From contig PGXU01000028.1 of the NCBI GenBank assembly GCA_002839335.1, positions 1 to 37,124 of the forward strand: 37,124 nucleotides of DNA. The letters run 5' to 3'. Positions 774-34,159 of this stretch are shown piece after piece. Every line of letters begins with the position of its first letter. Within the stretch, counting starts at the first letter, position 1. The DNA is from Spirochaetae bacterium HGW-Spirochaetae-4 (GTDB lineage Bacteria; Spirochaetota; Spirochaetia; Sphaerochaetales; Sphaerochaetaceae). The position numbers and the translations under genes are program-made. The notes under the pieces are model-generated. The model made no database searches. It was not told the DNA's origin and was given only the letters and a program-made list of their open reading frames with translations.

Positions 774-1634
774 TCAATGCTCCGCGTTGAATACGATTGT
801 CCGATTGTTGAATATGATGATCCGGTGCTCGAGATGTGCTTGGACTGCACGCGAGAGCACCTGACGTTCGACGTCCTTTCCCACTTGGCGCAATCCTTCC
901 GGACTCAGCTCGTGGTTGACCCGCACCACATCCTGCTCGATGATCGGACCCTGGTCGAGGTCTTCGGAGGCATAGTGCGCCGTGGCCCCGATCATCTTCA
1001 CCCCGCGTTCATATGCACGCATATACGGGTTGGCACCTTGGAATGCGGGAAGGAACGCATGGTGGATGTTGATGATCTTGCCTGACCACTCGGCGGTGAA
1101 TTCGGCAGTCAGGATTTGCATATAGCGGGCCAGAACAACCAGGTCCACATCGTGTTTGGCGAGCAGCTCGCGGATCTTCTCCTCCTGCTCGGGCTTGCGG
1201 TCCTTGGTGATCGGCAAATAGTAATACGGAATCCTGAATTGGTCGGCGATATACTCCAGATCGGGATGGTTGCTGATGATCAGCGGAATATCGCAAACCA
1301 GGTCACCCTCGTGCTGGCGACTGAGCAGATCGAACAGGCAATGGCTGGTCTTCGAGACCAGGACTGCCACACGATTGCGATAATCGGTGAAATGGCATTC
1401 CCAGGTAAGTTCCAAGCCTTGTGCGAATCGGGCGAAATCGGACTGCAGCTCCTTGCGGGTGGTCTTGAGATCCGCCAGGTCGAGTTCGACGCGCATATAG
1501 TACCGTTTGGCCCGAGTATCGGAATGCTGTTGGCAATGGAGGATGTTGTACCCACGCGAATAGAAGTACTGGGATATCGCGGCCAACAACCCTTTGCGAT
1601 CATTGCACTGTATGAGGAAGATGATTTTATGCAT
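774..1634 (-). CDS. purU: Formyltetrahydrofolate deformylase PurU
   Basis: This 286-residue protein hydrolyses 10-formyl-THF to THF and formate, balancing the one-carbon pool and supplying formate for purine synthesis. Residues about 3-80 form an ACT regulatory domain (FLIQCNDRKGLLAAI). The rest is a formyltransferase fold with the NIHHAFLPAFQGANPY active-site block and the catalytic-Asp stretch DLDQGPIIEQD. The frame opens further upstream, but the ATG at 1634 starts exactly at the ACT domain and has a GAGGAG Shine-Dalgarno sequence. Length fits the family (about 280). It is the last gene of a leftward group after xseA and xseB, 90 bp downstream of xseB; co-transcription is possible but not shown. 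Confidence 0.93.
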   Translation of the reverse strand: MHKIIFLIQCNDRKGLLAAISQYFYSRGYNILHCQQHSDTRAKRYYMRVELDLADLKTTRKELQSDFARFAQGLELTWECHFTDYRNRVAVLVSKTSHCLFDLLSRQHEGDLVCDIPLIISNHPDLEYIADQFRIPYYYLPITKDRKPEQEEKIRELLAKHDVDLVVLARYMQILTAEFTAEWSGKIINIHHAFLPAFQGANPYMRAYERGVKMIGATAHYASEDLDQGPIIEQDVVRVNHELSPEGLRQVGKDVERQVLSRAVQAHLEHRIIIFNNRTIVFNAEH

Positions 1635-1724
1635 GATAACGAGCTCCTCTCGGACCGGTGTCGGCCTGTGATTTCGCAATAGTATACTGGTCAACGCGTT
1701 GTGATGCAACAGTCCAGACAGGTT

Positions 1725-1961
1725 CTAGCGGGTTTCCGTCTCCGCGAACGGTGCCAAAGTCGGTTGCTGTGCAGATGTGTCGTCCGTCGGTGTGAGCAGT
1801 ATCTCCACCTTCCGTTCAATCTCGGTCAATTGTTTTTCGACCGACCTGGCGATTCCAACCCCCTCCTCGAACAATGCTATCGCTTCCTCCAGGGGAGTCT
1901 CGTTGCTTTTCAACTTTTCGGTGATTGCTTCCATCCGTTTCATATCCTGCTCAAAGCCCAT
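1725..1961 (-). CDS. xseB: Exodeoxyribonuclease VII small subunit
   Basis: This 78-residue protein is the small subunit of exonuclease VII, which degrades single-stranded DNA to oligonucleotides in repair and recombination; several XseB copies bind each XseA. The N-terminal helix pair carries the family signature (KRMEAITEKL, then ETPLEEAIALFEEG). The C-terminal 20 residues are low-complexity. Start ATG 1961 has a GGAGG box 7 nt upstream; upstream in-frame codons run back into xseA and look non-coding. It begins 22 bp after the xseA stop in the same direction, the usual pairing. Confidence 0.93.
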   Translation of the reverse strand: MGFEQDMKRMEAITEKLKSNETPLEEAIALFEEGVGIARSVEKQLTEIERKVEILLTPTDDTSAQQPTLAPFAETETR

Positions 1962-7955: not shown

Positions 7956-9863
7956 ATGCGTGAAATAAAAGGTTGGATGAAATGGTTGGTGAGTATCTGT
8001 CTGGTGGGCGTAGCCCTGTTCCACCTGTATACTGCGATTTTCGGTGTGTTCCAGCCTCGGATACAGCGGGGAATCCACCTCATGGTGTTGCTTCCCATGG
8101 CGTTTCTCCTGTATCCGGCTACAAAGAAGTCACCTAAGGATCGTCCCTCGATTTTCGATATGGTCTTTGCCCTGATCTCGGTCGTACCACCGATCTACCT
8201 CATGTTCATGAACGATGCGTTGAACATGCGTCTGGAAATGTTCGATCCGGTTTCGCCGTTGCAGACCCTTCTCGGATGGATCAATATCATCCTGATCATC
8301 GAAGCAGTCAGACGGACCGTCGTTCCCGCCATGGCCATACTGATCGGGATATTCTTCGTCTACATATTCACAGCTCCATGGTTGGGCGGCATATTCTACT
8401 CCAAGCCCTTGGCGTTGGGCCGTATCGCGGAGATGAACTATCTGGTGACCAGCGACGGTATCTACGGATCGATCGTAGGGGTAACCGCAACCTTCGTAGC
8501 CGTATTCGTCATATTCGGTGCATTCATGCAAAACACGAAGACCGGTGAATACTTTACGAACCTTGCTGTTTCCCTGGCTGGCAAGAGCGCCGGTGGTCCT
8601 GCCAAGATCGCTGTCATCTCTTCCGGTCTGTTCGGTTCCATCAGTGGAGTCGCCGCCGCGAACGTCTATGCTACCGGAGTATTCACCATTCCCTTGATGA
8701 AGCGTCTCGGTTATCGCGCACAGTTCGCAGGAGCCGTTGAATCGGCAGCCTCGACAGGTGGTCTGCTCATGCCTCCAATCATGGGAGCCGGAGCTTTCGT
8801 CATGTCGGAGATCACGGGTATCGCGTATGTGCATATCATCAAGGCAGCCCTTCTCGGTGCCATATTCTACTACTTGAGCATTCTTATCCGAGTCCACTTC
8901 GTGGCAAAGAAAGAGGGCTTGGTTGGTATGGACAAGGACGAGGTCATTTCCCGCAAGCAGATCCTGAAGGATTCCTACCAGCTTATTCCCCTTATTGTCC
9001 TGGTTATCCTCCTGGTTGTCGGATACTCCCCGTTCATTGCCGCCGTCTACGGTATCCTGGCAACATTCCTGCTGACCTTCCTCAACAGGGAAACCATGAT
9101 GACTCCCGCAAAACTCTGGAACACCTTCGAGCTCTCGGGTAAGAACCTGATCATGTTGGGTGTTTCCTGTGCAGGTGCGGGTATGGTGATCAGTATCGTG
9201 ACCAACACCGGATTGGCCTTGGGTATCGCATCGGTCATCCAGTCCTGGTCCGGTGGTGTCCTGTTGCCGGCGCTACTACTTATTATGATCACTTCGATCC
9301 TGATGGGTATGGGCATGCCGTGTACTCCAGCGTATATCGTGGCAGTCACGATCGGTGGACCTGCCCTCCAGGCTATGGGTATCGATGTATTGACCGCCCA
9401 CCTGTTCGTGTTCTACTTCGCCATCCTAGCCGAAATCACACCTCCGGTAAGTATCGCTTCCTACTGTGGTGCCGCGATCGCCGGATCCGATCCGTTGAAG
9501 ACCGGCTTCGAGGCCATGCGTATGGCGATTGTCGGATTCATCATCCCCTATATCTTCGTGTTCAACCCGGCCCTGATGCTCAACGGTTCGGCGTTGGAAG
9601 TGATCACACTTATCATCATCGTCATGTATGCAGTGGTCACATTGGCTTCCGCCTTCCGTGGATATTTGCATAGGATACTGAACAAGGGTGAACGGGCCCT
9701 CATGGGCTTGCTCGCCGCTGCATTGATCGTCGTTTCCTGCAACCTGTTCATCATGCACAATTTGGCATTCCAGATCGCTATCCTGGCATCTGCCGCTTTG
9801 ATCGTGCTGTTGTTCGTGTTGGCAAAGATCAAATTGTCAAAAGGCACCGCTATCGCAGCATAA
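7956..9863 (+). CDS. TRAP transporter fused permease subunit (4TM + 12TM type)
   Basis: This 635-residue inner-membrane protein combines the small (DctQ-like) and large (DctM-like) TRAP subunits, as is usual for TAXI systems. It imports the ligand of the adjacent receptor with a sodium or proton gradient. About 16-18 hydrophobic spans are visible; the DctM-like core has SSGLFGSISGVAAANVYATG, ESAASTGGLLMPPIMGAGAF and the later GMGMPCTPAYI and AEITPPVSIASYCGAAIAG re-entrant-type motifs. ATG 7956 is chosen for its GTGGAGTG upstream box and because the hydrophobic domain begins at once; the upstream open frame crosses the intergenic hairpin. A strong terminator follows, so transporter and oxidase operons are separate transcripts. 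Confidence 0.93.
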   Translation: MREIKGWMKWLVSICLVGVALFHLYTAIFGVFQPRIQRGIHLMVLLPMAFLLYPATKKSPKDRPSIFDMVFALISVVPPIYLMFMNDALNMRLEMFDPVSPLQTLLGWINIILIIEAVRRTVVPAMAILIGIFFVYIFTAPWLGGIFYSKPLALGRIAEMNYLVTSDGIYGSIVGVTATFVAVFVIFGAFMQNTKTGEYFTNLAVSLAGKSAGGPAKIAVISSGLFGSISGVAAANVYATGVFTIPLMKRLGYRAQFAGAVESAASTGGLLMPPIMGAGAFVMSEITGIAYVHIIKAALLGAIFYYLSILIRVHFVAKKEGLVGMDKDEVISRKQILKDSYQLIPLIVLVILLVVGYSPFIAAVYGILATFLLTFLNRETMMTPAKLWNTFELSGKNLIMLGVSCAGAGMVISIVTNTGLALGIASVIQSWSGGVLLPALLLIMITSILMGMGMPCTPAYIVAVTIGGPALQAMGIDVLTAHLFVFYFAILAEITPPVSIASYCGAAIAGSDPLKTGFEAMRMAIVGFIIPYIFVFNPALMLNGSALEVITLIIIVMYAVVTLASAFRGYLHRILNKGERALMGLLAAALIVVSCNLFIMHNLAFQIAILASAALIVLLFVLAKIKLSKGTAIAA

Positions 9864-9988: not shown

Positions 9989-11008
9989 ATGAAGAAACCA
10001 TTGTGTGTTGCAGTAGTAGGAGCTCTTGGTGCCGTTGGCCAGGAAATGATCAAGGTCCTTGAGCATTCATCGCTCGATGTCGGAACGTTCAAACCGCTGG
10101 ATGTTGTTTCCAATGTCGGAAGAACCGTCGGTTTCCGCGGAAAAACATGGACGGTACAAGAGTCTGGAGCCGGTAAATTTACCGATGTCGATATTGCATT
10201 GTTCTCAGCCGGGGCATCTGCCAGTGAGGTGTTGGCTCCCATCGCAGTCGCCGAAGGTGCGATTGTGGTCGACAACTCGAGCCAATGGCGGATGACCGAC
10301 GGAGTACCCTTGGTGATTCCCGAAGTGAATCCCCAGGCATTGAAGACCCACAAGGGGCTTATCGCCAATCCGAATTGTTCGACGATCCAGATGCTGGTCG
10401 CCCTGAAACCCTTGCACGACAGGTTCAAGATCCGTCGGGTGGTCGTTTCCACCTACCAGGCTGTCAGTGGTAGCGGTGCGCCGGCCATTGAGGAATTGAA
10501 ACAACAGAGTGCTGCCTTTTCCAATGGACAGAAACCGCAAGTCGCGGTGTACCCGCATCAGATTGCATTCAATGCGATACCGCATATCGATGTGTTCGAG
10601 GAAAACAGGTACACCAAGGAAGAGATGAAGATGGTGCACGAGACGCACAAGATGCTGGATCCCGCCATTGCGGTCTCCCCGACTGCAGTACGGATTCCTG
10701 TCTTCCGGGGCCACTCGGAGTCGTTGAACATCGAATTTGTGAATCCCTACGAATTGGACGAGGTCTTCGCAATCCTGTCGAAGGCACCCGGTATCGAAGT
10801 TGTGGATGATCCGCAGAATGCACGGTATCCGTTGGCACTCGACGCCGAGGGAAAGGATCCGGTGTATGTCGGAAGGATCCGAAGGGACGTCTCATTGGAA
10901 AATGGATTGAATCTTTGGGTTGTCTCCGATAATCTGCGCAAAGGCGCGGCACTGAACGCGGTGCAGATAGCGGAGAAGTTGGTGGAGATGGATCTATTGT
11001 CCCGCTAG
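9989..11008 (+). CDS. asd: Aspartate-semialdehyde dehydrogenase
   Basis: This 339-residue enzyme reduces aspartyl phosphate to aspartate semialdehyde with NADPH, the branch point to lysine, methionine and threonine. The N-terminal nucleotide motif GALGAVG is at residues 11-17. The catalytic Cys130 lies in IANPNCSTIQ, and SGSGAPAIEEL and RIPVFRGHSESL carry the substrate-binding Arg and the active-site His. Length is typical. ATG 9989 has a GAGGTG box. It is the first gene of an operon continuing with the oxidase subunits (41-bp gap, no terminator), an odd partnership: asd normally sits with lysC or dap genes. Control by operator 2 suggests it is induced by the transported compound. No aspartokinase gene is in the window. 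Confidence 0.94.
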   Translation: MKKPLCVAVVGALGAVGQEMIKVLEHSSLDVGTFKPLDVVSNVGRTVGFRGKTWTVQESGAGKFTDVDIALFSAGASASEVLAPIAVAEGAIVVDNSSQWRMTDGVPLVIPEVNPQALKTHKGLIANPNCSTIQMLVALKPLHDRFKIRRVVVSTYQAVSGSGAPAIEELKQQSAAFSNGQKPQVAVYPHQIAFNAIPHIDVFEENRYTKEEMKMVHETHKMLDPAIAVSPTAVRIPVFRGHSESLNIEFVNPYELDEVFAILSKAPGIEVVDDPQNARYPLALDAEGKDPVYVGRIRRDVSLENGLNLWVVSDNLRKGAALNAVQIAEKLVEMDLLSR

Positions 11009-11049: not shown

Positions 11050-12240
11050 ATGGTTCAATCATATGATGTACTGGTTATCGGCGGGGGGATCATTGGCCTC
11101 TCGTGCGGTTACTACCTGACCAAGCAAGGCAAGAGGGTCGTGGTATTGGAATCGGGGGGATTCGCCGACGGCGCCTCCGGGGCCTGCGACGACATGATAT
11201 TGTTCCAGTCCAAGAAGCCGGGCATCAACCTCGAGTTGGCTTTCGAAAGTCTGGAACTGTACAAGTCCCTGGTGGGGGAGTTGGAAGATTCCCTCGGCTT
11301 CGCCAACTATGGTGGCATGGTGCTAATCGAGAATGAACGGGAGTTGGAGGTGATGGAGGAATTCGTCATGCAACAACGCTCCTATGGTCTCGATGTGGAG
11401 ATTCTCACCAAGGCCGCCATGCGCAAGAAGCAACCGTTCTTGCATGAACGGTTCATCGCATCGACGTACAGTTCCATGGATTCCCAGGCATATCCCTTCG
11501 CGGTCATGCATCGGTTTGCCCGCAAGGGACGCCAGATGGGCATGCAGGTCGTGCACAAGTCTCCGGTAGTCGGCATCCAAAAGGATGGTGCGGGTGACTT
11601 CCTTGTGACCACAGCCCAGAATATGCAGTACCGGGCACCCCACGTGGTGAACGCGGCGGGAGCTTGGGCCGGGAAGGTCGCCGATCTGATCGGATTGAAC
11701 GTTCCCATGGAACCCAGGAGAGGTCAGATCATCATAACGGAGAAGATTCCCGCAATCGGTGAGACCAACCTGTGGAGCGCAAAATACCTCGTGACCAAAC
11801 TGAAGCCCGGAATCCAGATCGATTCGACCGAAGAGGAGAAACGATTGGGATTGGCTTTCGCGCTTACCAGGACCGAAGGCGATTCGTATCTCATAGGCAG
11901 TACGAGGGAATTCGTCGGATATGACAAGCGGACAACCATGGAAGGTATCCGTGCGATCATCAACCAGGCGGTTTCCTTTATCCCTGTCCTAAAGGATGTC
12001 AACTTCATACGTGCCATCGCAGGATTGCGGCCCGCCACGCCCGACGGCAAGATGGTCCTTGGGGAACATGCCGGAGTTCCCGGCTTCTTCACCGCGGCCG
12101 GACATGAGGGAGACGGTATCAGCCTCGCCCCGATCACCGGCAAGCTCTTGGCCGACATGGTCTGTGAGGGAAGGTCCGATGCCCGTCTGGAAGAACTGTC
12201 ACCGAATCGATTTGCGAGCAATGCCAAGGAGGTCTGCTGA
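11050..12240 (+). CDS. FAD-dependent amino-acid oxidase/dehydrogenase catalytic subunit (DadA/HcnC-like)
   Basis: This 396-residue protein has a DAO-type flavoprotein fold: the dinucleotide motif IGGGIIGLS at residues 10-18, GGFADGASG in the FAD-binding loop, VVNAAGAWAG near residue 200, and the C-terminal GLRPATPDGKMVLG with AAGHEGDGISLAPITG closing over the flavin. Relatives oxidise the C-N bond of secondary or D-amino acids: D-amino-acid dehydrogenase, the opine oxidase B subunit, D-hydroxyproline or proline dehydrogenase, glycine in HcnC. The next three genes encode the other subunits expected of the HcnABC/opine-oxidase/PDH type, so it probably works in a complex passing electrons to iron-sulphur clusters and not to oxygen. 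AAAGGA precedes ATG 11050. The substrate cannot be told from sequence. Confidence 0.88.
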   Translation: MVQSYDVLVIGGGIIGLSCGYYLTKQGKRVVVLESGGFADGASGACDDMILFQSKKPGINLELAFESLELYKSLVGELEDSLGFANYGGMVLIENERELEVMEEFVMQQRSYGLDVEILTKAAMRKKQPFLHERFIASTYSSMDSQAYPFAVMHRFARKGRQMGMQVVHKSPVVGIQKDGAGDFLVTTAQNMQYRAPHVVNAAGAWAGKVADLIGLNVPMEPRRGQIIITEKIPAIGETNLWSAKYLVTKLKPGIQIDSTEEEKRLGLAFALTRTEGDSYLIGSTREFVGYDKRTTMEGIRAIINQAVSFIPVLKDVNFIRAIAGLRPATPDGKMVLGEHAGVPGFFTAAGHEGDGISLAPITGKLLADMVCEGRSDARLEELSPNRFASNAKEVC

Positions 12241-12533
12241 TGGCGGACGACAAGGATTTCTTTATTTGCCGATGTGAGGAAGTAACCCTGAGGGAAATAG
12301 AAGAGGTCATCGACGAAGGGTACCATACCATCGATGATGTGAAACGGATAACACGTGCGGGCATGGGATTGTGCCAGGGGCGTAGTTGCGGAAAGGTAAT
12401 CGCCCGTATCATTTCCCAGAAGACGGGAAAGCCTCTGGAAGAGGTATTGCAGACCAGCTATCGGTTCCCCGTCCGTACGGAGAAGCTGAAGGCGCTGGAA
12501 GAGGAGGGCCCCTCAGATGCAGAGAATAATTGA
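12240..12533 (+). CDS. BFD-type [2Fe-2S] subunit of the oxidase complex
   Basis: This 97-residue protein has the bacterioferritin-associated-ferredoxin fold with four cluster ligands, Cys10, Cys12, Cys45 and Cys50 (FICRCEE, then GLCQGRSCG). In opine-oxidase, D-hydroxyproline-dehydrogenase and similar complexes this domain is either fused to the NAD/FAD subunit or a separate small subunit, as here. Its ATG overlaps the stop of the FAD subunit by one base (TGATGG), showing translational coupling. It is expected to relay electrons between the two flavins. The C-terminal 30 residues are charged and variable. Confidence 0.88.
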   Translation: MADDKDFFICRCEEVTLREIEEVIDEGYHTIDDVKRITRAGMGLCQGRSCGKVIARIISQKTGKPLEEVLQTSYRFPVRTEKLKALEEEGPSDAENN

Positions 12534-12837
12534 ACACCCGGTGCTCGGACCACTTCCCGATGTCCCCATGGTGAAGATCATCGTCGATGGCGAACCGATG
12601 GAAGCCCGCGAGGGTGAGATGATTGCGGCTGCGTTGATCGCAACCGGCAAGAAATATTTCAGGAAGACCATAAAGACCCACGAACCGCGGGGCATCTATT
12701 GCGGAATCGGCCGATGCACGGACTGTGTCATGACTGTCAATGGCATTCCCAATGTCCGGACCTGCATTACCCCGGTCGAGGATGGGATGGTCATAGAAAC
12801 CCAGATGGGCTACGGCGTCTGGAAACAGGAGCAATAA
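12517..12837 (+). CDS. HcnA-like [2Fe-2S] ferredoxin subunit
   Basis: This 106-residue protein matches the small [2Fe-2S] subunit of HcnA/opine-oxidase/sarcosine-oxidase-alpha N-terminal type. The plant-type cluster ligands are Cys62, Cys67, Cys70 and Cys83 (YCGIGRCTDC...RTC), after a beta-rich start (VKIIVDGEPMEAREGEMIAAAL). It overlaps the end of the BFD gene by 17 bp and is followed after 2 bp by the NAD/FAD gene, so all are translated together. Role: electron transfer inside the dehydrogenase complex. Confidence 0.9.
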   Translation: MQRIIEHPVLGPLPDVPMVKIIVDGEPMEAREGEMIAAALIATGKKYFRKTIKTHEPRGIYCGIGRCTDCVMTVNGIPNVRTCITPVEDGMVIETQMGYGVWKQEQ

Positions 12838-12839
12838 CG

Positions 12840-13931
12840 ATGGAAGAGAGAGAAGTCGTAGTAATCGGTGCTGGACCGGCAGGGCTTTCCGCCGCATTGG
12901 AAGCCGCACGCTCTGGTGCGCATGTGTTGTTGGTGGATGAGAACAGCAAGCCGGGTGGGCAGTTGTTCAAGCAGATACATAAGTTTTTCGGTTCCCGCGA
13001 CCATAGGGCCGGAGTCCGTGGTATCGATATCGGGACACAATTGCTCGAGGAAGCCGATGCCCTGAAGATCGAGGTCTGGTTGGATGCCGAGGTCTGTGGC
13101 ATATTCAACCAACGGGATGTCTGGATTGTCAGGAACAAGGAAAAGTCCGTTAATGTCCGCGCACAGCGGATAATCATCGCCACCGGTGCGGTGGAGAACT
13201 CGGTGAATTTTCCCGGTTGGTCGCTTCCTGGGGTCATGGGGGCAGGAGCCGCACAGACGATGATCAACCTGCATCGCGTGCTCCCCGGATTCAAGGTGCT
13301 CATGGTGGGTTCCGGCAATGTCGGGGTCATCGTGTCCTACCAGTTGCTGCAGGCCGGAGCCGATGTGAAGGCGATCGTCGAGGCGGCACCCCGACTTGGT
13401 GGCTATGGTGTCCATACGGCGAAAGTGCGTCGTGCCGGAGTTCCGTTCCATACGAGCCACACGGTGCTCGAGGCACGGGGAACCGATCATGTGGAATCAG
13501 CCACGATTGTACAGATCGACGACAAGTGGCAACCGATTCCCGGAACCGAGAAGGTGCTCGATGTCGATACCATCTGTATCGCCGCAGGATTGACTCCGTT
13601 GGTGGAGTTGGCGTTTGCCGCCGGGTGTGAGCCGTTGTACAGCCCGTTGTTGGGAGGTATGGTGCCTTGGCACGATGCAAGCATGCGCACCAGCATACCG
13701 AGTATCTATATCGCCGGCGATATTTCCGGAGTCGAAGAGGCGAGCACAGCCATGGAAGAGGGGAGGATGGCCGGATTGTCTGCCGCCCACTCGCTCGGAT
13801 ACGTTGCCGAACAGGTCTACGAGGTTGGATTCAAGGCCGCCGAGCAACGGATGCTTGCCCTGCGTTCCGGATTGTTCGGACAGAAGCGACGTGATGCGAA
13901 AGCCGCGATAATGGCGCAAACGAGAGGATGA
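12840..13931 (+). CDS. NAD(P)/FAD-dependent oxidoreductase subunit (HcnB-like)
   Basis: This 363-residue pyridine-nucleotide-disulphide-type flavoprotein has an FAD motif at residues 10-15 (GAGPAG), the conserved KPGGQLFKQ block near residue 40, an ATG triad (IIATGAVEN), a second dinucleotide site (MVGSGNVGV, about residue 157-165) and the C-terminal FAD signature YIAGDISGVEEAS. It lacks the C-terminal BFD extension often fused to this subunit, consistent with the separate BFD gene two positions upstream. It should exchange electrons between the complex and NAD(P). ATG 12840 begins exactly at the FAD domain and has GGAG upstream; the longer frame has no such support. Its stop overlaps the next ATG. 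Confidence 0.9.
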   Translation: MEEREVVVIGAGPAGLSAALEAARSGAHVLLVDENSKPGGQLFKQIHKFFGSRDHRAGVRGIDIGTQLLEEADALKIEVWLDAEVCGIFNQRDVWIVRNKEKSVNVRAQRIIIATGAVENSVNFPGWSLPGVMGAGAAQTMINLHRVLPGFKVLMVGSGNVGVIVSYQLLQAGADVKAIVEAAPRLGGYGVHTAKVRRAGVPFHTSHTVLEARGTDHVESATIVQIDDKWQPIPGTEKVLDVDTICIAAGLTPLVELAFAAGCEPLYSPLLGGMVPWHDASMRTSIPSIYIAGDISGVEEASTAMEEGRMAGLSAAHSLGYVAEQVYEVGFKAAEQRMLALRSGLFGQKRRDAKAAIMAQTRG

Positions 13932-13936
13932 ATAGT

Positions 13937-14464
13937 ATGGAACATACCACGAGTGACGATAAAGGATTGAAAGTCTCCGGTGCGCCGAATCTGGCTGAAT
14001 TGCACGCCAGCCCCTGCTACCAGTTGCCGGCCGAGGATAGACGGGCTCTCGCTGCTGTGATCGAGTGTATCGAAGGCATTCCCTGCAATCCTTGCGAGAC
14101 TGCTTGTCCTCAACATGCCATTATTGTCGGCGATGAGATCACGAATCTGCCGATAGTGGATCTGGACAAGTGCAATGGATGTGGCATATGCGTCGCCGCA
14201 TGTCCCGGTCTGGCGATATATTTGAAAAAGCATACGTTCAAGGAGAACTTGGCCTATATCGCCTTCCCCTATGAGTACGTTCCTTTGCCGGTGGAGGGTC
14301 AAACGATCAGGATGGTCGATAGGCTTGGACAGGATGTCTGTGACGGTACGGTATTGCGTGTGGTCAAGATCAAGAAGAACGACAGGACCGCAGTAGTGCA
14401 TGCCACCTACCCGAATGGATACTACGAGCAGGTGGTGAACATGCAGCGGTTGGCTACCGACTAA
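13937..14464 (+). CDS. 4Fe-4S binding protein, fifth member of the oxidase operon
   Basis: This 175-residue protein (178 if ATG 13928 is used; 13937 has the better-spaced GAGAGG box) has eight clustered Cys. Counted from 13928, the first set is Cys47, 53, 56 and 60 (CIEGIPCNPCETACP), unusual in spacing; the second is a regular CNGCGICVAACP at 82-93. The tail (about 105-178) is a beta-rich domain unlike ferredoxins, with KIKKNDRTAVVHATYPNGYYEQV. Classical HcnABC-type complexes do not have this subunit; it may pass electrons to a cellular ferredoxin pool in an anaerobe. It is translationally coupled to the NAD/FAD gene (ATGA). Its stop abuts the stop of convergent dapB1 with no gap. Confidence 0.85.
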   Translation: MEHTTSDDKGLKVSGAPNLAELHASPCYQLPAEDRRALAAVIECIEGIPCNPCETACPQHAIIVGDEITNLPIVDLDKCNGCGICVAACPGLAIYLKKHTFKENLAYIAFPYEYVPLPVEGQTIRMVDRLGQDVCDGTVLRVVKIKKNDRTAVVHATYPNGYYEQVVNMQRLATD

Positions 14465-15679
14465 TCAGATACCGAACTCTTTCTTGATTATCGCCACCGC
14501 CCGATCGACGTCGCTCGTCGGAGAGATATAGGAAATCTTGCTCTCCGACGTAGTAACCGCAAGTATCGGAATTCCGGCTTTGGCCATGCAGGAGAACACC
14601 CGGTAGGCGACACCGGACTGGAATTCCATACCCGGACCTTCGACCGTCAACTTGGTGATGTTGTCCACAATTCCCAGATGGACACCGTCATGTGTCGCAA
14701 CCAATTCCCTGAGCAATGCCTCTGTCTTCACCTGGTCTTTCGCATTGATCGTGAAAGAAACCGACAAGTGCCCATTCGTCGCACCCGTATGGCTGATCAT
14801 ATCGATAAACACATCATTCTCTGCCAAAACGCCATACAAATGGGAAATCACGGACATGTCGCGGGGAAGGTCTTCCAAGGAAACCAGGACTTCCTCGGGA
14901 TAGGTGTAGAGGGTGGTCACCGCGCTCGATTCGTGTATCATATCCTGCATCGAATAGATCCCGGGTTTCTGCCGAACGATATAGGCTGCCGCAGCTATGG
15001 CTCCTGTCGCGAATACTTGGCGGGAGAAGGCCTGGTGGCCGATCGATATGATCTCGTCCTGACCTGCGAACGTCACTTCATGCTGACCGACTATCGTTCC
15101 TCCACGCAATGAGTGGATTCCCAATTCGTCCGGCTTGCGAAGCGTGTCGGCACCTTCGCGGCCGCAGACGTAGCGCAATTTGTTGATTCTGACCGAATTG
15201 ATGGAATCCGCCAACATAAGTGCGGTCCCACTGGGGGAATCCTTCTTCAGATTGTGGTGCTTCTCGATTATCTCGATATCATACCGCTCTCCCAGAACCT
15301 TTGTCGTGCTTTGAAGCAATTGTTGGACAAGGTTTATGCCCAGCGACATGTTGCCCGACCGGAATATCGCGATTTCGGCACTGGCCTGCGCGAGCAAGTC
15401 AAGTTCTACTTGGGTCAATCCTGTAGTGGCCACCACAATACCAAGCTTGCGCGCGATGGCGATGGGGAGAAACCCATGGAGTGTCTTCGGGGATGTGAAG
15501 TCGACGACCACATCGGCATCCACCGTGCATGCTTCCAAAGAGGCGAAGGTGGGGTAGGGACGGCTGACATCGACAATGTCGATTCCAGCGACGATTTTCA
15601 TATCCGACATATCTCCGATGAGGTTAGTCAGGACTGTTCCCATGCGACCGCCGCAACCGTTGAGAATTACTCTTACCAT
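14465..15679 (-). CDS. dapB: 4-hydroxy-tetrahydrodipicolinate reductase fused to C-terminal ACT domains (DapB1)
   Basis: This 404-residue protein has an N-terminal DapB enzyme (residues 1 to about 255): nucleotide motif GCGGRMG at 8-14, ATTGL at 84-88, the catalytic His141-His142 and Lys145 in EKHHNLKKDSPSGTA, and a C-terminal FATGAIAAA helix. From about residue 262 to the end lies a pair of ACT-like units resembling the regulatory half of aspartokinase (ISHLYGVLAENDVFIDMISH; FSCMAKAGIPILAVTTSESK). Ordinary DapB is about 250-270 residues, so this is a fusion. The reaction is NAD(P)H reduction of the DapA product in lysine synthesis; the ACT part suggests control by an amino acid, perhaps lysine. 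ATG 15679 has a GGGAGTG box. Confidence 0.9.
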   Translation of the reverse strand: MVRVILNGCGGRMGTVLTNLIGDMSDMKIVAGIDIVDVSRPYPTFASLEACTVDADVVVDFTSPKTLHGFLPIAIARKLGIVVATTGLTQVELDLLAQASAEIAIFRSGNMSLGINLVQQLLQSTTKVLGERYDIEIIEKHHNLKKDSPSGTALMLADSINSVRINKLRYVCGREGADTLRKPDELGIHSLRGGTIVGQHEVTFAGQDEIISIGHQAFSRQVFATGAIAAAAYIVRQKPGIYSMQDMIHESSAVTTLYTYPEEVLVSLEDLPRDMSVISHLYGVLAENDVFIDMISHTGATNGHLSVSFTINAKDQVKTEALLRELVATHDGVHLGIVDNITKLTVEGPGMEFQSGVAYRVFSCMAKAGIPILAVTTSESKISYISPTSDVDRAVAIIKKEFGI

Positions 15680-15808: not shown

Positions 15809-16669
15809 TCAACCAAAGGTTGCAAGCAACGTCTTTCTGTTTTGCTCACGCAATTCGCACAACGGGAGCCTGAATACCTCTTCCATCATGCCCTTGCTTG
15901 CCATATAGGTCTTTATCGGTACCGGGTTGGTCTCTATGAATTGGTTCACGAAGAACGGGTACAGGTGATTGTGGATCTGCAAGGCCTTGCGCATATCTCC
16001 TGCCAGGGCGGCATGGGTCATGTCGACCATTTCCTTGGGGAACATATTGCCGGCGACACTGATGATACCCTGCGCACCGCAGGCGACCATGGGCAGGGTC
16101 AAGGCATCGTCCCCGGAAAGGACCGAAAAGGTTGTGGGACGCTTGTTCAGGAGATCTTCGATCTGGGACATGCTGCCACTCGCTTCCTTTACCGCTACGA
16201 TTCCGGGATGCTGTGCCAATCTGAGCAAGAGGGAAACGGACATGTTCACGGAACTTCTTCCCGGAACATTGTAGAGGACAACCGGCAATGCGGCTTCATC
16301 CGCGATTGTGGTGAAGTGCCGGTACAACCCTTCTTCTGAAGGTTTGTTGTAATAGGGGGCGACCTGCAGCGTCATGTCGGCGCCCAGGTCTTTCGCCCTT
16401 CTTGTGGCTTCGATCGCGGCCTTGGTGTTGTTGGCACCGGTACCGGCTATGACCGGTATCTTCTTGTCGGCCATCTCAACCGCAACCTGTATCAACAGTT
16501 CCTTTTCCTTGGAGTCGAGGGTCGGACTTTCACCGGTCGTACCTACAGGAACAAGCCCATCGATACCTTGGGTGATTTGAAATTCGATCAGAGCTTTATA
16601 AGCGCCGAGATCTATACTCCCGTCTTTGTTGAAGGGGGTTACCAATGCAGTGAAAACACCTTGGATCAT
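15809..16669 (-). CDS. dapA: 4-hydroxy-tetrahydrodipicolinate synthase, copy 1 (operator-controlled)
   Basis: This 286-residue TIM-barrel aldolase condenses pyruvate with aspartate semialdehyde, the first committed step to lysine. All key residues sit at the Escherichia coli positions: Thr44-Thr45 (GTTGESPTL), Tyr107 (YYNKP), Tyr133 and Arg138 (YNVPGR), and Schiff-base Lys161 (KEASG). Nothing suggests a changed reaction. Start ATG 16669 has GGAG upstream. It has its own promoter with operator 3 and its own terminator, so it responds to the same regulator as the transporter and asd. A second copy lies at 18586-19482. Confidence 0.93.
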   Translation of the reverse strand: MIQGVFTALVTPFNKDGSIDLGAYKALIEFQITQGIDGLVPVGTTGESPTLDSKEKELLIQVAVEMADKKIPVIAGTGANNTKAAIEATRRAKDLGADMTLQVAPYYNKPSEEGLYRHFTTIADEAALPVVLYNVPGRSSVNMSVSLLLRLAQHPGIVAVKEASGSMSQIEDLLNKRPTTFSVLSGDDALTLPMVACGAQGIISVAGNMFPKEMVDMTHAALAGDMRKALQIHNHLYPFFVNQFIETNPVPIKTYMASKGMMEEVFRLPLCELREQNRKTLLATFG

Positions 16670-16825: not shown

Positions 16826-16926
16826 CTCTTTTTCGGTTAGTTCTGGAACTTGCACCGACTATGTATTATACTTGATATGCATCGGTTTGCCTGTGATCCA
16901 TAGGCATGCTGCATAGGAGGCTATTT

Positions 16927-17682
16927 TTGGATATCGCCAAAGACAAATGGAAGAAACCGATCCTCGAGATCATCAACGAATCAGAAGATCCTGTCGGGTC
17001 CTGGTTCATAGTCAATGCTTTTACGGAGCGTGGGATTGAAGTCAGCAGTGCGACTATCGGAAGGGAGTTGAATCAGCTCGAGGTCCTTGGATATGTCGAG
17101 AAGCATGGGTTCAAGGGACGTTCCATAACAGCCTTGGGCAAGCAGGTTGTCGAGGCTGCCAACAACAGCCTTGAATTGGATTATTACAAGAAGAGTTTGG
17201 ATGACTTGATCAACAGCGATGTGCTGGAGAATTTCCTCATGGTGCTTGAGGCACGGTTGGCAATCGAGCGCCAGACCGCAAGGCTTGCTGCCCAACGTAT
17301 TACCGATACCGAGTTGGATGAACTCGAGTCGTGCCTGAGAAACCAGCATTCGCACTCGATCGACCACCAGAGTATCGCCAACGACGACATCGCTTTCCAT
17401 GGCGGCATCGCCAAGGCATCCAAGAACAAGGCGCTGTTCTCCCTCTACATGATGCTATCTGCAATGGGACAGCAATCGCAGCTGTTCGAACAGTTGCGAT
17501 ATCGTGTGGGTGACAACTATTCGAACTTCCACGGCCGTATCCTCACCGCACTACAGTCACGGAACGCGGAAGAGGCGGAACAATGCATGATCGACCACAT
17601 AACCAAGCTCACCCGGGATGTCGACCAATACTGGAATGAATACCAGCGGACAAAGAATGAAAATGATGGGCGGGTGCTGTAA
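16927..17682 (+). CDS. Winged-helix/FCD transcriptional regulator, probable repressor of the cluster
   Basis: This 251-residue protein has an N-terminal winged helix (to about residue 75; GSWFIVNAFTERGIEVSSAT, then ELNQLEVLGYVEK and a RSITALGKQVV wing) resembling the NrpR/RNase R type helix-turn-helix more than the usual GntR domain. The C-terminal FCD domain (about 95-235) is an all-helical ligand sensor that keeps its metal or acid-binding set: Asp and His in NDDIAFHGGIAKASKN, His in NFHGRI and His in MIDHITK. The frame opens at ATG 16906, but an AGGAGG box lies inside it at 16915-16920, so TTG 16927 is the likely start. It is divergent from dapA1 and flanked by operator-like sequence; it is the only DNA-binding regulator in the cluster. 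Confidence 0.87.
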   Translation: MDIAKDKWKKPILEIINESEDPVGSWFIVNAFTERGIEVSSATIGRELNQLEVLGYVEKHGFKGRSITALGKQVVEAANNSLELDYYKKSLDDLINSDVLENFLMVLEARLAIERQTARLAAQRITDTELDELESCLRNQHSHSIDHQSIANDDIAFHGGIAKASKNKALFSLYMMLSAMGQQSQLFEQLRYRVGDNYSNFHGRILTALQSRNAEEAEQCMIDHITKLTRDVDQYWNEYQRTKNENDGRVL

Positions 17683-17790: not shown

Positions 17791-18546
17791 ATGCGAATTG
17801 CTATCGTAGGTTTTGGAAAGATGGGACGTGTGGTTCGAGAAGCCGCATTGCGGTCCGGTCATGAGGTGGTTTCTGTGATCGACCCTCATGCGCAAGGACC
17901 GGAAGTCACCTCCCGAACCTGTGATGCAGCCTCTCTTGCCAATGCGGATGTCGTTGTCGAATTCTCTGTACCTGAGGGAATAGAGGAACGCATGATGACC
18001 TACGCCAAGGAGAAGGTTCCTGCGGTCATAGCGACAACAGGGTGGTATGCGGACATGGATCGTATCCGTCAAAGGATGCAAGAAACGGAATGCTCGATCA
18101 TCTGGTCGGGAAATTTCGCCATCGGCGTACATCTGTTTTTCAGCTTGGTGCGAAGTGCTGCCCGACGTATGCAGCGGTTTCCCGAGTACGATCCTGTCGT
18201 CCAGGAACTGTTCCACGCCGGCAAGGGCGATAGCCCGTCCGGTACGTCCATCATGCTGGGAAATATCCTGTTGGAGGAGCTTACCCGCAAGGATAGCTTG
18301 GAGACCGCACGGTTGGACCGCAAGCGTTCGGATTCGGAGATCCATCTCAGTTCCGCTCGCGGTGGATCCCATCCTGGTACCCACACGGTGATCTTCGACA
18401 GTCCGGTCGATTCGATTGAGATAACCCACCGGGCACGTAGCCGGGAAGGGTTCGCAACCGGGGCATTGCAAGCGGCGGCATGGGTAAGCGATGGAAGAAA
18501 AGGTTTTTTCAAGCTTGACGATATGCTTGCCGAATTGATGGACTGA
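17791..18546 (+). CDS. dapB: 4-hydroxy-tetrahydrodipicolinate reductase, divergent copy (DapB2)
   Basis: This 251-residue DapB homologue has nucleotide motif GFGKMG at 7-12, ATTGW at 81-85 and the signature ELFHAGKGDSPSGTS. In the normal enzyme this reads E-x-HH-x-x-K-x-D-x-PSGT; here the first His, the usual acid catalyst, is Phe141, while His142 and Lys145 remain. It also has GFGKMG where most DapB have GxxGRMG, and no ACT domain. It still clearly belongs to the family (FATGALQAA tail) and leads an operon with dapA2, dapL and lysA, so it is likely the reductase of that operon or a variant with altered kinetics. ATG 17791 has GAGGAGG upstream; the longer frame begins in the promoter. Confidence 0.85.
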   Translation: MRIAIVGFGKMGRVVREAALRSGHEVVSVIDPHAQGPEVTSRTCDAASLANADVVVEFSVPEGIEERMMTYAKEKVPAVIATTGWYADMDRIRQRMQETECSIIWSGNFAIGVHLFFSLVRSAARRMQRFPEYDPVVQELFHAGKGDSPSGTSIMLGNILLEELTRKDSLETARLDRKRSDSEIHLSSARGGSHPGTHTVIFDSPVDSIEITHRARSREGFATGALQAAAWVSDGRKGFFKLDDMLAELMD

Positions 18547-18585
18547 ATACTGTTCGGCGCGAGATTCATCGCAAAGGAGTTGGAG

Positions 18586-19482
18586 ATGAAAAGATTCAAG
18601 GGCGTGTACACAGCACTGATCACACCGTTTACAGAATATGGACTAGTCGATGAGAAGGCGTTCAAACAGATTATCGAATTCCAGATTTCCCAAGGTATCG
18701 ACGGCTTGGTCCCTTGTGGAACCACCGGAGAAAGCCCGACACTCAGCCACGCGGAACATGATCGGGTGATCGCCTCCACCGTCGAAACCTCCGCAGGCAG
18801 GGTTCCCGTCATAGCAGGAACCGGATCGAATGCCACCAGCGAGGCAGTCCGTTTGTCGAAACATGCCGAGTCGGCCGGAGTCGATGCATTGTTGTTGGTG
18901 AATCCATATTACAACAAGCCGACACAGAAGGGGTTGTACCTGCATTTCCGGACCATTGCCGATTCGGTCGGGATACCCTGTGTCCTGTACAATATCAAGG
19001 GAAGGACGGGTGTCAATATCGAAACGGACACCTTGGTACGGCTTGCCAACGATTGCCCCAATATCGTGGCGGTCAAGGAAGCCTCGGGAAGTCTGGATCA
19101 GATGAAGGATGTGATCGCACGTTCGCCAGAGGATTTCTCGGTACTCAGTGGGGATGACAACATGGCGGTCGATTTGATCGAAGCAGGCGGAGACGGTGTC
19201 ATTTCCGTGGCATCAAACCTCATTCCAGCCCAGATGCGTACTATGATCCATACCGCACTCTCCGGTGATTTCGTACAGGCCAGGGGATGGGAAAAGAACC
19301 TTTCCCCGTTCTTCGCGGCATGTTTTTGTGAAACCAATCCTATTCCCATCAAGACCGCCATGGCCGCATACGGATGGTGCAAGGAAGAATTCAGGCTTCC
19401 CATGTGTTCCTTGGAATTCGAAGAACACAGACAACAGATCCTAACGGCATTGGCTCCATTGGACATCAAGAGAAACAAGTGA
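18586..19482 (+). CDS. dapA: 4-hydroxy-tetrahydrodipicolinate synthase, copy 2
   Basis: This 298-residue TIM-barrel enzyme carries out the same reaction as copy 1. Key residues are kept: Thr46-Thr47 (GTTGESPTL), Tyr109 (YYNKP), Tyr135 and Arg140 (YNIKGR) and Schiff-base Lys164 (KEASG). The tail has a short extra C-terminus. ATG 18586 has AAAGGAG six bases upstream, and the in-frame TTG at 18580 touches that box, so it is not the start. It lies 39 bp after dapB2 and 28 bp before dapL in the lysine operon. The two DapA proteins look like old paralogues with different loops, not a recent duplication. Confidence 0.93.
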   Translation: MKRFKGVYTALITPFTEYGLVDEKAFKQIIEFQISQGIDGLVPCGTTGESPTLSHAEHDRVIASTVETSAGRVPVIAGTGSNATSEAVRLSKHAESAGVDALLLVNPYYNKPTQKGLYLHFRTIADSVGIPCVLYNIKGRTGVNIETDTLVRLANDCPNIVAVKEASGSLDQMKDVIARSPEDFSVLSGDDNMAVDLIEAGGDGVISVASNLIPAQMRTMIHTALSGDFVQARGWEKNLSPFFAACFCETNPIPIKTAMAAYGWCKEEFRLPMCSLEFEEHRQQILTALAPLDIKRNK

Positions 19483-19510: not shown

Positions 19511-20758
19511 ATGGCTACCATTAACAGGAATTTTCGGAAACTATCCGCAGGATATCTGTTTCCAGAGATTGCACGCCGTGCAAAGACGTATCAGGCGGCA
19601 CATCCGGGAGTTGTCTTGCATAAGCTTGGCATAGGCAACACCACCGAACCGTTGCCACCGGCGGTGCTTGCCGGTTTGCACGCCAAGGTGGATGGTTTGG
19701 GACATGCCGACACCTATACGGGCTATGGCGATGAACAAGGCGATACCCCGCTTCGCGAGGCATTGTCAGAATATTATCGGCAACTGGGTGTCGAAATCGA
19801 TCCCGAGGAATTCTTCGTCAGCGACGGAGCCAAGGCCGATGCCGCCAATATCCAGGCGATATTCGACACCAGCAATGTGGTGGCGATCCAGGATCCCGCC
19901 TATCCGGTGTATGTCGACTCGAATGTCGTATCGGGAAGGACCGGGCTGTTCAATCGCACGTTGGGACAGTATGACGGATTCGTCTATTTGCCGGGGACCG
20001 AGGAAAACGGGTTTTTTCCCGAACCACCACAACAGAAGGTCGATCTGATCTATCTGTGCAGTCCCAACAATCCCACCGGAGCGGTTGCGACGCACGCGCA
20101 GCTCCAGGCTTTCGTGGATTATGCCCGCAAACACAAGGCAGTGATCATATTCGATGCCGCCTATGCGGAATATATCAGCGATTCCAGCTTGCCTCGGACC
20201 ATCTATGAAATTCCCGGCGCACGCGAGTGTGCGATAGAGATCAACAGTTTCTCCAAGTTCGCCGGCTTCACCGGTGTCCGGCTGGGGTGGACAATCGTCC
20301 CCAAGGAACTGGTTGCCGAAGATTCACAACCAGGTGAACTGCATACCATGTGGTTCCGTCGTCAGGTGACCTTCTTCAACGGTGCAAGCAATATCGCGCA
20401 GGCCGGTGGTATCGCCGTCTTGTCTCCCGAAGGGCTGTCGCAATCGCGCGCCGTCATAGCCTACTATATGGAGAATGCACGGATTATCCGCGACGGTCTC
20501 CGCTCTGTGGGCCTGACCGTTTTCGGGGGTGACAACGCGCCGTACCTTTGGGTCAAGACACCCGGTTCCCTGTCTTCGTGGGATTTCTTCGACCAGTTGC
20601 TCAACCAATGCCAGGTGATTGCTACTCCGGGAGCCGGTTTCGGTGCCGCAGGAGGACAGTATATCCGTGTCAGTGCGTTCGGACATCGGGGGAATATCGA
20701 GAAGGCAGTCGCGAGTATCAAGAACAATCTGGTTATCACCGAGGAGGCCCGGTCATGA
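19511..20758 (+). CDS. dapL: LL-diaminopimelate aminotransferase
   Basis: This 415-residue fold-type I PLP enzyme converts tetrahydrodipicolinate and glutamate directly to LL-diaminopimelate, bypassing the succinylase and acetylase routes. Typical DapL landmarks are the start INRNFRKLSAGYLFPEIARR, GIGNTTEPLPPAV, TYTGYGDEQGDTPLREAL, FFVSDGAKAD, SPNNPTGAVAT and the PLP Lys249 in NSFSKFAGFTGVRLGW. Length is normal (about 410). ATG 19511 has AGGAAG upstream. It tells us this organism makes lysine by the DapL route, seen in spirochaetes, chlamydiae, plants and some anaerobes. The stop overlaps the start of lysA (ATGA). Confidence 0.96.
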   Translation: MATINRNFRKLSAGYLFPEIARRAKTYQAAHPGVVLHKLGIGNTTEPLPPAVLAGLHAKVDGLGHADTYTGYGDEQGDTPLREALSEYYRQLGVEIDPEEFFVSDGAKADAANIQAIFDTSNVVAIQDPAYPVYVDSNVVSGRTGLFNRTLGQYDGFVYLPGTEENGFFPEPPQQKVDLIYLCSPNNPTGAVATHAQLQAFVDYARKHKAVIIFDAAYAEYISDSSLPRTIYEIPGARECAIEINSFSKFAGFTGVRLGWTIVPKELVAEDSQPGELHTMWFRRQVTFFNGASNIAQAGGIAVLSPEGLSQSRAVIAYYMENARIIRDGLRSVGLTVFGGDNAPYLWVKTPGSLSSWDFFDQLLNQCQVIATPGAGFGAAGGQYIRVSAFGHRGNIEKAVASIKNNLVITEEARS

Positions 20759-21996
20759 GCACGAAGAATTTACCTGTCGACGAAGCAACAATGCTTTCGT
20801 TGGCCGCAGCATATCCAACACCATTCCATTTGTATGACGAGCAGGCGATCCGAGCCAATGCCCGGGCATTCAAGCAAGCGTTCTCTTGGGTTCCAGGTTT
20901 CAAGAACTTTTTCGCCGTAAAGGCTTGCCCCAATCCATCCATACTCAAGATCATGAAGGAGGAGGGGTTCGGCTCCGATTGCAGCTCGCTGCCGGAACTG
21001 GTGCTTTCCCAGCAGGCGGGAATTGTCGGTGAGGATATCATGTTCACCAGCAACGATACCCCCGACGAGGAATTTGCCGCGGCATTCGACATGGGAGCAG
21101 TGATCAACCTCGACGATATCACCCATATCGATTCGTTGGTACGCAGTGCGAAGATGCCCGAGCTCATCTCGTTCCGTTACAATCCCGGACCGGATAGGAC
21201 CGGCAATGCGATTATCGGGAATCCGGTGGAAGCCAAATACGGGGTGACCACCGAACAATTGGTTCCCTGCTATCTCAAGGCTAGGGAGTTGGGTGCCAAG
21301 CGATTCGCGTTGCATACCATGGTTGCCTCAAATGAACTGGACGGAAGTTATATCGTCGAGACCGCACGCATGTTGTTCGCCCAGGCGATTCGCCTCCAGG
21401 CAGAGGCAGGTATCAGGTTGGAGTTCGTGAACATGGGCGGAGGTATTGGTATTCCGTATCGTCTCGACCAGGATGCCATGGATATCGCATGGGTCAGTTC
21501 CGAAATCAAAAAACTGTACGACCAGATGATCGTTCCGGCAGGTCTCGATCCCCTACGGATCGTGTTCGAATGCGGACGCATGGTTACAGGCCCGTATGGA
21601 TACCTGGTGACCCATGTTCGGCACGTGACCAGCAAGTACAAGAATTATGTCGGTCTGGATGCGAGCATGGCGAACCTGATGCGTCCCGCCCTCTATGGTG
21701 CCTATCATCACCTGACCGTTGTCGGCAAAAGCCCCTCGGACAGCGACGGGGTGTACGATGTGACCGGGTCGCTGTGTGAGAACAACGACAAGTTCGCGAT
21801 CGACCGGAAGTTGCCAAAGATGGTTCCGGGCGATGTGGTGGTTATCCATGATGCCGGTGCCCATGGACATGCCATGGGGTTCAATTACAACGCGAAATTG
21901 CGATCGGCCGAGTACCTGTTGCAATCCGATGGATCGGTGCGTATGATCAGACGTGCGGAGACAATGGACGATTTGTTCGCAACACTGAATTTCTAG
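20755..21996 (+). CDS. lysA: Diaminopimelate decarboxylase (fold-type III PLP)
   Basis: This 413-residue protein belongs to the alanine-racemase/ornithine-decarboxylase fold. PLP Lys56 is in FFAVKACPN, a glycine-rich phosphate loop is in NMGGGIGIP, the ECGRMVTGPYG strand is present, and the substrate-binding Cys-Glu lies in TGSLCENNDKFA. It decarboxylates meso-diaminopimelate to lysine, which fits its place directly after dapL; ATG 20755 overlaps the dapL stop. The sequence is of the broad DapDC/OrnDC group, so activity on a related diamino acid cannot be ruled out. The frame runs further upstream through dapL but that part is a shadow. dapF (epimerase) is not in the window. Confidence 0.88.
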   Translation: MSTKNLPVDEATMLSLAAAYPTPFHLYDEQAIRANARAFKQAFSWVPGFKNFFAVKACPNPSILKIMKEEGFGSDCSSLPELVLSQQAGIVGEDIMFTSNDTPDEEFAAAFDMGAVINLDDITHIDSLVRSAKMPELISFRYNPGPDRTGNAIIGNPVEAKYGVTTEQLVPCYLKARELGAKRFALHTMVASNELDGSYIVETARMLFAQAIRLQAEAGIRLEFVNMGGGIGIPYRLDQDAMDIAWVSSEIKKLYDQMIVPAGLDPLRIVFECGRMVTGPYGYLVTHVRHVTSKYKNYVGLDASMANLMRPALYGAYHHLTVVGKSPSDSDGVYDVTGSLCENNDKFAIDRKLPKMVPGDVVVIHDAGAHGHAMGFNYNAKLRSAEYLLQSDGSVRMIRRAETMDDLFATLNF

Positions 21997-34032: not shown

Positions 34033-34103
34033 AAAGAAAGAGGAACCGCAGGAGGCAAATACGCCATTCCAAACAGTTCCCCTGATCGGGCTGGGCGGAT
34101 TTG
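34033..34103. repeat. 71-bp direct repeat, copy B (at tRNA-Pro)
   Basis: This copy overlaps the last 18 bases of tRNA-Pro (34086-34103) and extends 53 bp downstream of the tRNA. The arrangement is that of attachment-site duplication at a tRNA 3' end, or of a local 195-bp tandem duplication. Confidence 0.9.
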
Positions 34104-34159
34104 AACCGCCGACCCCAAGTCCCCCAGACTTGTACGCTAAACCCCTGCGCTACAGCCCG
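34086..34159 (-). tRNA. tRNA-Pro (anticodon GGG)
   Basis: This 74-nt sequence folds as a full cloverleaf on the minus strand: acceptor CGGGCTG/CAGCCCG plus discriminator A; D-arm GCGC/GCGT; anticodon stem CAAGT/ACTTG with loop CTGGGGG, giving anticodon GGG (reads CCC and CCU); 5-nt variable loop; T-arm GGCGG-TTCAAAT-CCGCC. CCA is not encoded. A promoter with TTGACA, 18-bp spacer and TATGTT lies upstream. Confidence 0.96.

Follow-up and report, generated by a model that had tools for sequence, protein, structure and literature searches.

DapB-ACT, a Recurrent and Apparently Undescribed DapB Variant with an Aspartokinase-Type Tandem ACT Tail, Most Likely Regulated by Lysine

Introduction

Most bacteria place the feedback control of lysine biosynthesis on aspartokinase and on DapA. 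The 4-hydroxy-tetrahydrodipicolinate reductase DapB is essential in many bacteria and has been studied as an antibiotic target; to our knowledge, it is not counted among the allosteric enzymes. The window analyzed here, a stretch of 37,124 nucleotides of the genome of a member of the Sphaerochaetaceae, encodes a DapB followed by what looks like the regulatory part of an aspartokinase, which raises the question of whether the reductase itself may be a point of feedback. If it is, an ACT-controlled DapB, together with the separate ACT protein that many Clostridia encode next to dapB, would be a new control point in one of the best-studied biosynthetic branches. It would also offer a testable case of an allosteric site shifting between pathway steps, from DapA to DapB, and a possible regulatory part for lysine/DAP production strains. 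No description of a DapB with tandem ACT domains was found in the open-access literature searched, nor any characterized DapB carrying them, of which the earlier note on this DNA had allowed that there might be many. DapB-ACT is regarded here as a recurrent, apparently undescribed variant of DapB which is most likely regulated by lysine.

The dapB-ACT Gene and Its Reductase Domain

The dapB-ACT gene (14465..15679, minus strand) is a single ORF of 404 aa, spanning exactly the positions assigned to it beforehand (with no strand given), and it was defined by its translation, Pfam and NCBIfam matches, and a predicted structure. Its start codon is the ATG at 15679, with AGGGAGTGATGT immediately 5' of it. 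The DapB catalytic part comprises residues 1-250 (14930..15679, minus strand), as delimited by TIGR00036 and structural alignment; residues 1-248 score 200.8 bits against the NCBIfam model for dapB, TIGR00036 (cut-off 122), and the Pfam domains DapB_N (2e-24) and DapB_C (1e-43) span residues 2-248. The catalytic motif HHNLKKDSPSGT (residues 141-152; 15224..15259, minus strand) was located by alignment with E. coli DapB, in which H141, H142, K145 and S150-T152 (PSGT at 149-152) correspond to H159, H160, K163 and the SGT of 168-170. The consensus E(L/A)HHxxKxDAPSGT, taken with the roles of the catalytic residues from PMC11489326, is matched by EKHHNLKKDSPSGT at residues 139-152.

The predicted model superposes on the DapB structure 5us6_H with a VIA Z of 31.2 and an rmsd of 1.9 over 252 aligned residues. 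DapB-ACT has in common with known DapB proteins (TIGR00036; E. coli, S. aureus 3qy9) the HHxxK and PSGT motifs, the Rossmann nucleotide-binding start and the fold (Z about 28-31), but it carries about 150 extra C-terminal residues, whereas the solved DapB structures matched are without ACT domains. The previous reading of a complete DapB, made from His141-His142, Lys145 and PSGT, is borne out by the family matches over cut-off, the intact catalytic residues and the fold. The best explanation is that DapB-ACT is a working 4-hydroxy-tetrahydrodipicolinate reductase, for which NAD(P)H-dependent activity is predicted.

The Tandem ACT Domains

The C-terminal part contains an ACT1 region (about residues 256-330; 14690..14914, minus strand), placed by the secondary structure of the model and by alignment to aspartokinase tails, and an ACT2 region (about residues 334-404; 14468..14680, minus strand) with T377-S378-E379, placed by Pfam (ACT_9 at 345-402, ACT_7 at 338-398) and position mapping. 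The Pfam scores of ACT_9 (9e-19, 67.4 bits) and ACT_7 (2e-12, 47.1 bits) are over the cut-off of 27, whereas ACT1 scores weakly in Pfam (PF01842, 17.7 bits, below a cut-off of 27). Region 245-404 aligns with the C-termini of aspartate kinases at 84.6 bits, and a sequence search of solved structures matched the first part of the protein to DapB and the second to regulatory domains of aspartokinase. The AlphaFold model, built using the window and related proteins (pLDDT 91.5, pTM 0.71), contains both ACT units, and its residues 252-404 superpose on the aspartokinase tail of P. aeruginosa (5yei_A) with a Z of 21.3 and an rmsd of 1.2 A over 153 residues; with this pTM, the predicted placement of the ACT units relative to DapB is uncertain. 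No AA_kinase (amino-acid kinase domain) match was found in DapB-ACT by Pfam, and the protein is not an aspartokinase (EC 2.7.2.4). Both earlier proposals, a tandem ACT region of the aspartokinase type and the absence of a kinase domain, agree with these results, and the doubt as to whether the C-terminus has an ACT fold at all is answered by the Pfam matches and the predicted structure, both of which show one.

The tandem ACT fold is common to DapB-ACT and the aspartokinase tails or beta subunits (C. glutamicum 2dtj/3aaw, P. aeruginosa 5yei, Thermus 2dt9); in contrast to aspartokinase, the unit is without a kinase domain and is encoded within or behind dapB. The ThrA-type aspartokinase-homoserine dehydrogenases and other ACT-bearing biosynthetic enzymes likewise have an ACT module on a biosynthetic oxidoreductase, but DapB-ACT is a different enzyme at a different pathway step.

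Candidate effector residues were mapped onto the sequence of the C. glutamicum aspartokinase after it had been checked against PDB entries. D274, G277, A279 and N374, which we take to be the threonine site of aspartokinase, vary little or not at all within the C. glutamicum-type aspartokinase clade, but they are lost in the fusions, in a separate form of the ACT unit described below and in a second clostridial aspartokinase clade; the window protein has R273, S276 and I278, and a proline at the position of N374. D294 and T380-S381-E382, a set that presumably resembles the lysine-holding site of E. coli aspartokinase III, are shared with the aspartokinase tails and retained across 19 fusions (D294 in 18/19, T380 in 17/19, S381 in 18/19 and E382 in 17/19), being D293, T377, S378 and E379 in the window protein. 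E347 (C. glutamicum 350) is specific to the fusions, present in 17 of the 19 and absent from kinase tails. The position of Q298 is occupied by histidine in the window protein and in 8/19 fusions; Q298G, as well as A279T, is among the deregulating mutations of aspartokinase (PMC10464499). Because one residue set is kept and the other lost, a single effector of the lysine type is indicated, and the residues point to DapB-ACT sensing one such effector, with meso-diaminopimelate (meso-DAP) also possible and threonine less likely since its set is the one lost.

Distribution and Origin of the Fusion

The DapB-ACT architecture is recurrent in sequence databases and not peculiar to this window. The full-length fusion was found in 4 genomes among 393 of Spirochaetota, and in 11 of the 61 genomes of the window's own family, Sphaerochaetaceae (G000, G224, G840, G357, G359, G843, G834, G839, G851, G855 and G823; the copy of G834 is cut by the contig end). 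Among 391 genomes sampled from the class of Caldicoprobacter, 23 carry the fusion at full length and uninterrupted; in 16 of these 23 the query had no other match at E <= 1e-10, so that the fusion is apparently their sole DapB. A broader scan, with one genome per species, found fusions in spirochaetes, Caldicoprobacter, Christensenella, other Clostridia and one MAG labelled Desulfobulbaceae (L053), whose DapB-ACT is spirochaete-like and which may be misbinned. Compared with a 97%-identical relative (L046), the DapB half has a dN/dS of 0.059 and the ACT half one of 0.051, the latter indicating that the ACT part is maintained. A chance or assembly artefact is ruled out by the recurrence in many independent genomes and the strong purifying selection on both halves.

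The same scan found a separate tandem-ACT ORF of about 150-205 codons immediately 3' of dapB in 21 clostridial loci, and this gene has been kept beside dapB across many genera. The order at these loci is mostly asd-dapA-dapB-ACT, matched by asd-dapA-dapB+ACT for the fusions of Caldicoprobacter and Christensenella. The start codons of the separate ACT ORFs are often 0-30 bases past the dapB stop, several of them with a GGAGG-like ribosome-binding site. Stop-codon read-through joining both ORFs was considered, 15 of the 21 being in-frame; yet most of the separate ORFs begin at a start codon of their own, and a clear GGAGG is present for several, which makes read-through unnecessary. In a tree of the ACT units, the fused form is one clade, the separate form another and the aspartokinase tails two more; with six long-branch or divergent rows omitted, the fused and separate forms unite in a group without the kinase tails, with moderate support (97/78). 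The occurrence of the same ACT protein both fused to and encoded beside DapB is a textbook indication that it is functionally linked to DapB.

The DapB half of the fusion falls, in its own tree, inside the clostridial DapB group and outside the other DapB of Spirochaetota, which suggests that the Sphaerochaetaceae acquired the fusion from a clostridial donor. Near relatives of this half exist without ACT (L062, L020/L021), and the ACT part must therefore be dispensable in some cases.

Lysine Pathway Genes in the Window

The window contains further genes of the lysine pathway on both sides of dapB-ACT. The aspartate-semialdehyde dehydrogenase asd (9989..11008, plus strand; NF011456, 452.6 bits) is followed on its 3' side (11050-14464, plus strand) by genes like those for an FAD amino-acid oxidase, small iron-sulphur proteins and an HcnB-like dehydrogenase, a cluster that resembles D-amino-acid or hydroxyproline oxidation. 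The partner synthase dapA1 (15809..16669, minus strand; TIGR00674, 353.5 bits) lies just upstream of dapB-ACT in the same orientation, with 129 bases separating the two genes. A transcription regulator of the FCD family (16906..17682, plus strand; PF07729, 2e-19) sits between two divergent dapA/dapB pairs, a location that is conserved; it has an unusual winged-helix N-terminus (HTH_12), and a metabolite of the pathway may serve as its effector. The second pair, also on the plus strand, includes dapB2 (17791..18546; TIGR00036, 137.8 bits, with alignment and family comparison), which is the resident Sphaerochaetaceae DapB without ACT, and the resident synthase dapA2 (18580..19482; TIGR00674, 355.7 bits), and continues with the LL-diaminopimelate aminotransferase dapL (19511..20758; TIGR03542, 546 bits) and a lysA-like diaminopimelate decarboxylase (20755..21996), identified from its translation and from the order dapB2-dapA2-dapL-lysA, which is conserved in relatives. 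Most DapB-bearing Sphaerochaetaceae have the DapB2 type in this order. At Rfam gathering scores, the only match across the window was a single tRNA (34086-34159), and no lysine riboswitch or other RNA control was found.

The two DapA genes are 2 kb apart and, by residue check, have opposite signatures at the lysine site: DapA1, paired with DapB-ACT, has the lysine-insensitive K56/A84, whereas DapA2, paired with DapB2, has the lysine-sensitive H53/H56/N80/E84. The inhibition that lysine exerts on E. coli DapA is abolished by H56K or E84T (PMC10464499). A DapA of this type also acts as a lysine checkpoint, where the same branch begins, but it uses H53, H56, N80 and E84 and no ACT domain, and the DapA adjoining DapB-ACT has lost that site. 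The pair H56 and E84 is present in 0/16 DapA partners of fusions versus 15/57 DapA neighbors of ACT-less DapB, an association confounded by ancestry; many clostridial DapA are without the pair although their DapB bears no ACT, and 22 of the same 57 have neither residue. In L062, a Cloacimonadota MAG with a close ACT-less DapB, the DapA is of the lysine-sensitive type. The pattern fits a checkpoint that may lie on DapB where DapA has none.

In DapB2 of the window, the position of E. coli His159 is occupied by phenylalanine (ELFHAGKGDSPSGT). This FH motif is present in DapB2 of 8/8 scorable fusion-bearing Sphaerochaetaceae genomes, versus HH in 22/22 fusion-free ones; in G824 (about 85% complete, with the gene at a contig edge) DapB2 has FH and the fusion was not seen. 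The FH proteins form one clade (support 100/98), so they represent a single evolutionary event and not eight, and the count carries no further statistical weight. DapB2 is under purifying selection (dN 0.024, dS 0.36 relative to L222). The histidine lost is the proposed catalytic acid. On the simplest reading, the reductase work may have shifted from DapB2 to DapB-ACT, and DapB2 is likely a pseudoenzyme or an enzyme of changed function. A third DapB homolog, with alanine in place of His160, is encoded elsewhere in the same genome (L006, contig C38, about 1150-1938, plus strand); no lysine genes were seen around it in its short stretch.

Proposed Regulation of DapB and Alternatives

Here it is proposed that this DapB is probably inhibited allosterically, through its aspartokinase-derived tandem ACT unit, by an end product of the pathway, most likely lysine. 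The tandem ACT would bind the end product, L-lysine being the most likely and meso-diaminopimelate a possible one, and the ligand-bound unit would reduce the activity of the reductase half, with the sign and size of the effect and the subunit contacts that would carry it as predictions of the proposal. In Clostridia, the separate ACT protein encoded directly behind dapB would be a regulatory subunit of DapB. Feedback would be placed wholly or partly on DapB, beside a DapA without its own lysine site, and such a move, already suggested in the earlier note, is plausible and indirectly supported by the loss of that site in the partner DapA, the ACT gene beside dapB when it is unfused and the fusion often being the sole DapB.

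The residue data bear on two other readings of the ACT unit. It might be allosteric but respond to another effector (meso-DAP, threonine, methionine or THDP), or activate instead of inhibit, which we consider unlikely: ACT tails are able to change ligand, as in B. subtilis, which has an aspartokinase inhibited by meso-DAP, and E347 of the fusions has no counterpart in kinase tails, but the threonine set is gone, and the pathway of the gene cluster ends in lysine, which is also what the site lost from DapA binds. That the unit merely stabilizes or oligomerizes DapB, or is a passive remnant that binds no ligand, seems quite unlikely. The degradation of one of the two candidate effector sites and the ACT-less close relatives of DapB would agree with it, whereas the low dN/dS of the ACT half, the ligand-type residues kept in nearly all fusions and the preservation of the separate gene beside dapB in many genera fit it poorly. 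A broader version of the proposed inhibition by lysine is tentative and, in our view, rather doubtful as a whole: a dedicated family of DapB regulatory ACT units (separate in Clostridia; fused in Caldicoprobacter, Christensenella and spirochaetes) would make DapB the lysine/DAP checkpoint, and upon uptake of dapA-dapB-ACT the DapB2 of Sphaerochaetaceae would have lost its catalytic acid and been retained as a pseudoenzyme that might take part in mixed tetramers.

The descent of the ACT unit from aspartokinase tails also allows that it acts in trans on aspartokinase, as the beta subunit of an alpha2beta2 aspartokinase does, riding on DapB only for co-expression or as an aspartokinase-DapB scaffold. 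The sole kinase-competent aspartokinase of the window's genome (L007, contig C85, 1480-2799, plus strand) has a diverged regulatory tail without a Pfam ACT match, its TIGR00657 match ending at 408 of 442, which keeps this alternative alive, and in Eubacterium callanderi (L105) a separate tandem-ACT gene (8731-9228, plus strand) lies directly 3' of an aspartokinase gene. However, the ACT of L105 clusters with the aspartokinase tails, apart from the dapB-linked clade, whose separate genes are located behind dapB and not behind the aspartokinase gene. An aspartokinase match over the family cut-off is present in 48/50 genomes checked, almost all with their own tail, and the aspartokinase of Sphaerochaetaceae is full length whether the fusion is present or absent. 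A beta-subunit role for an ACT-less aspartokinase is thus unsupported, as the tails occur in nearly all genomes checked without tracking the fusion, and regulation in trans is quite unlikely.

The window's genome also encodes a ThrA-like protein (L001, contig C142, 415-2814, minus strand) in which the ACT and homoserine dehydrogenase parts are kept and the aspartokinase domain is degraded; family-wide, the matches to the aspartokinase model begin only near position 190.
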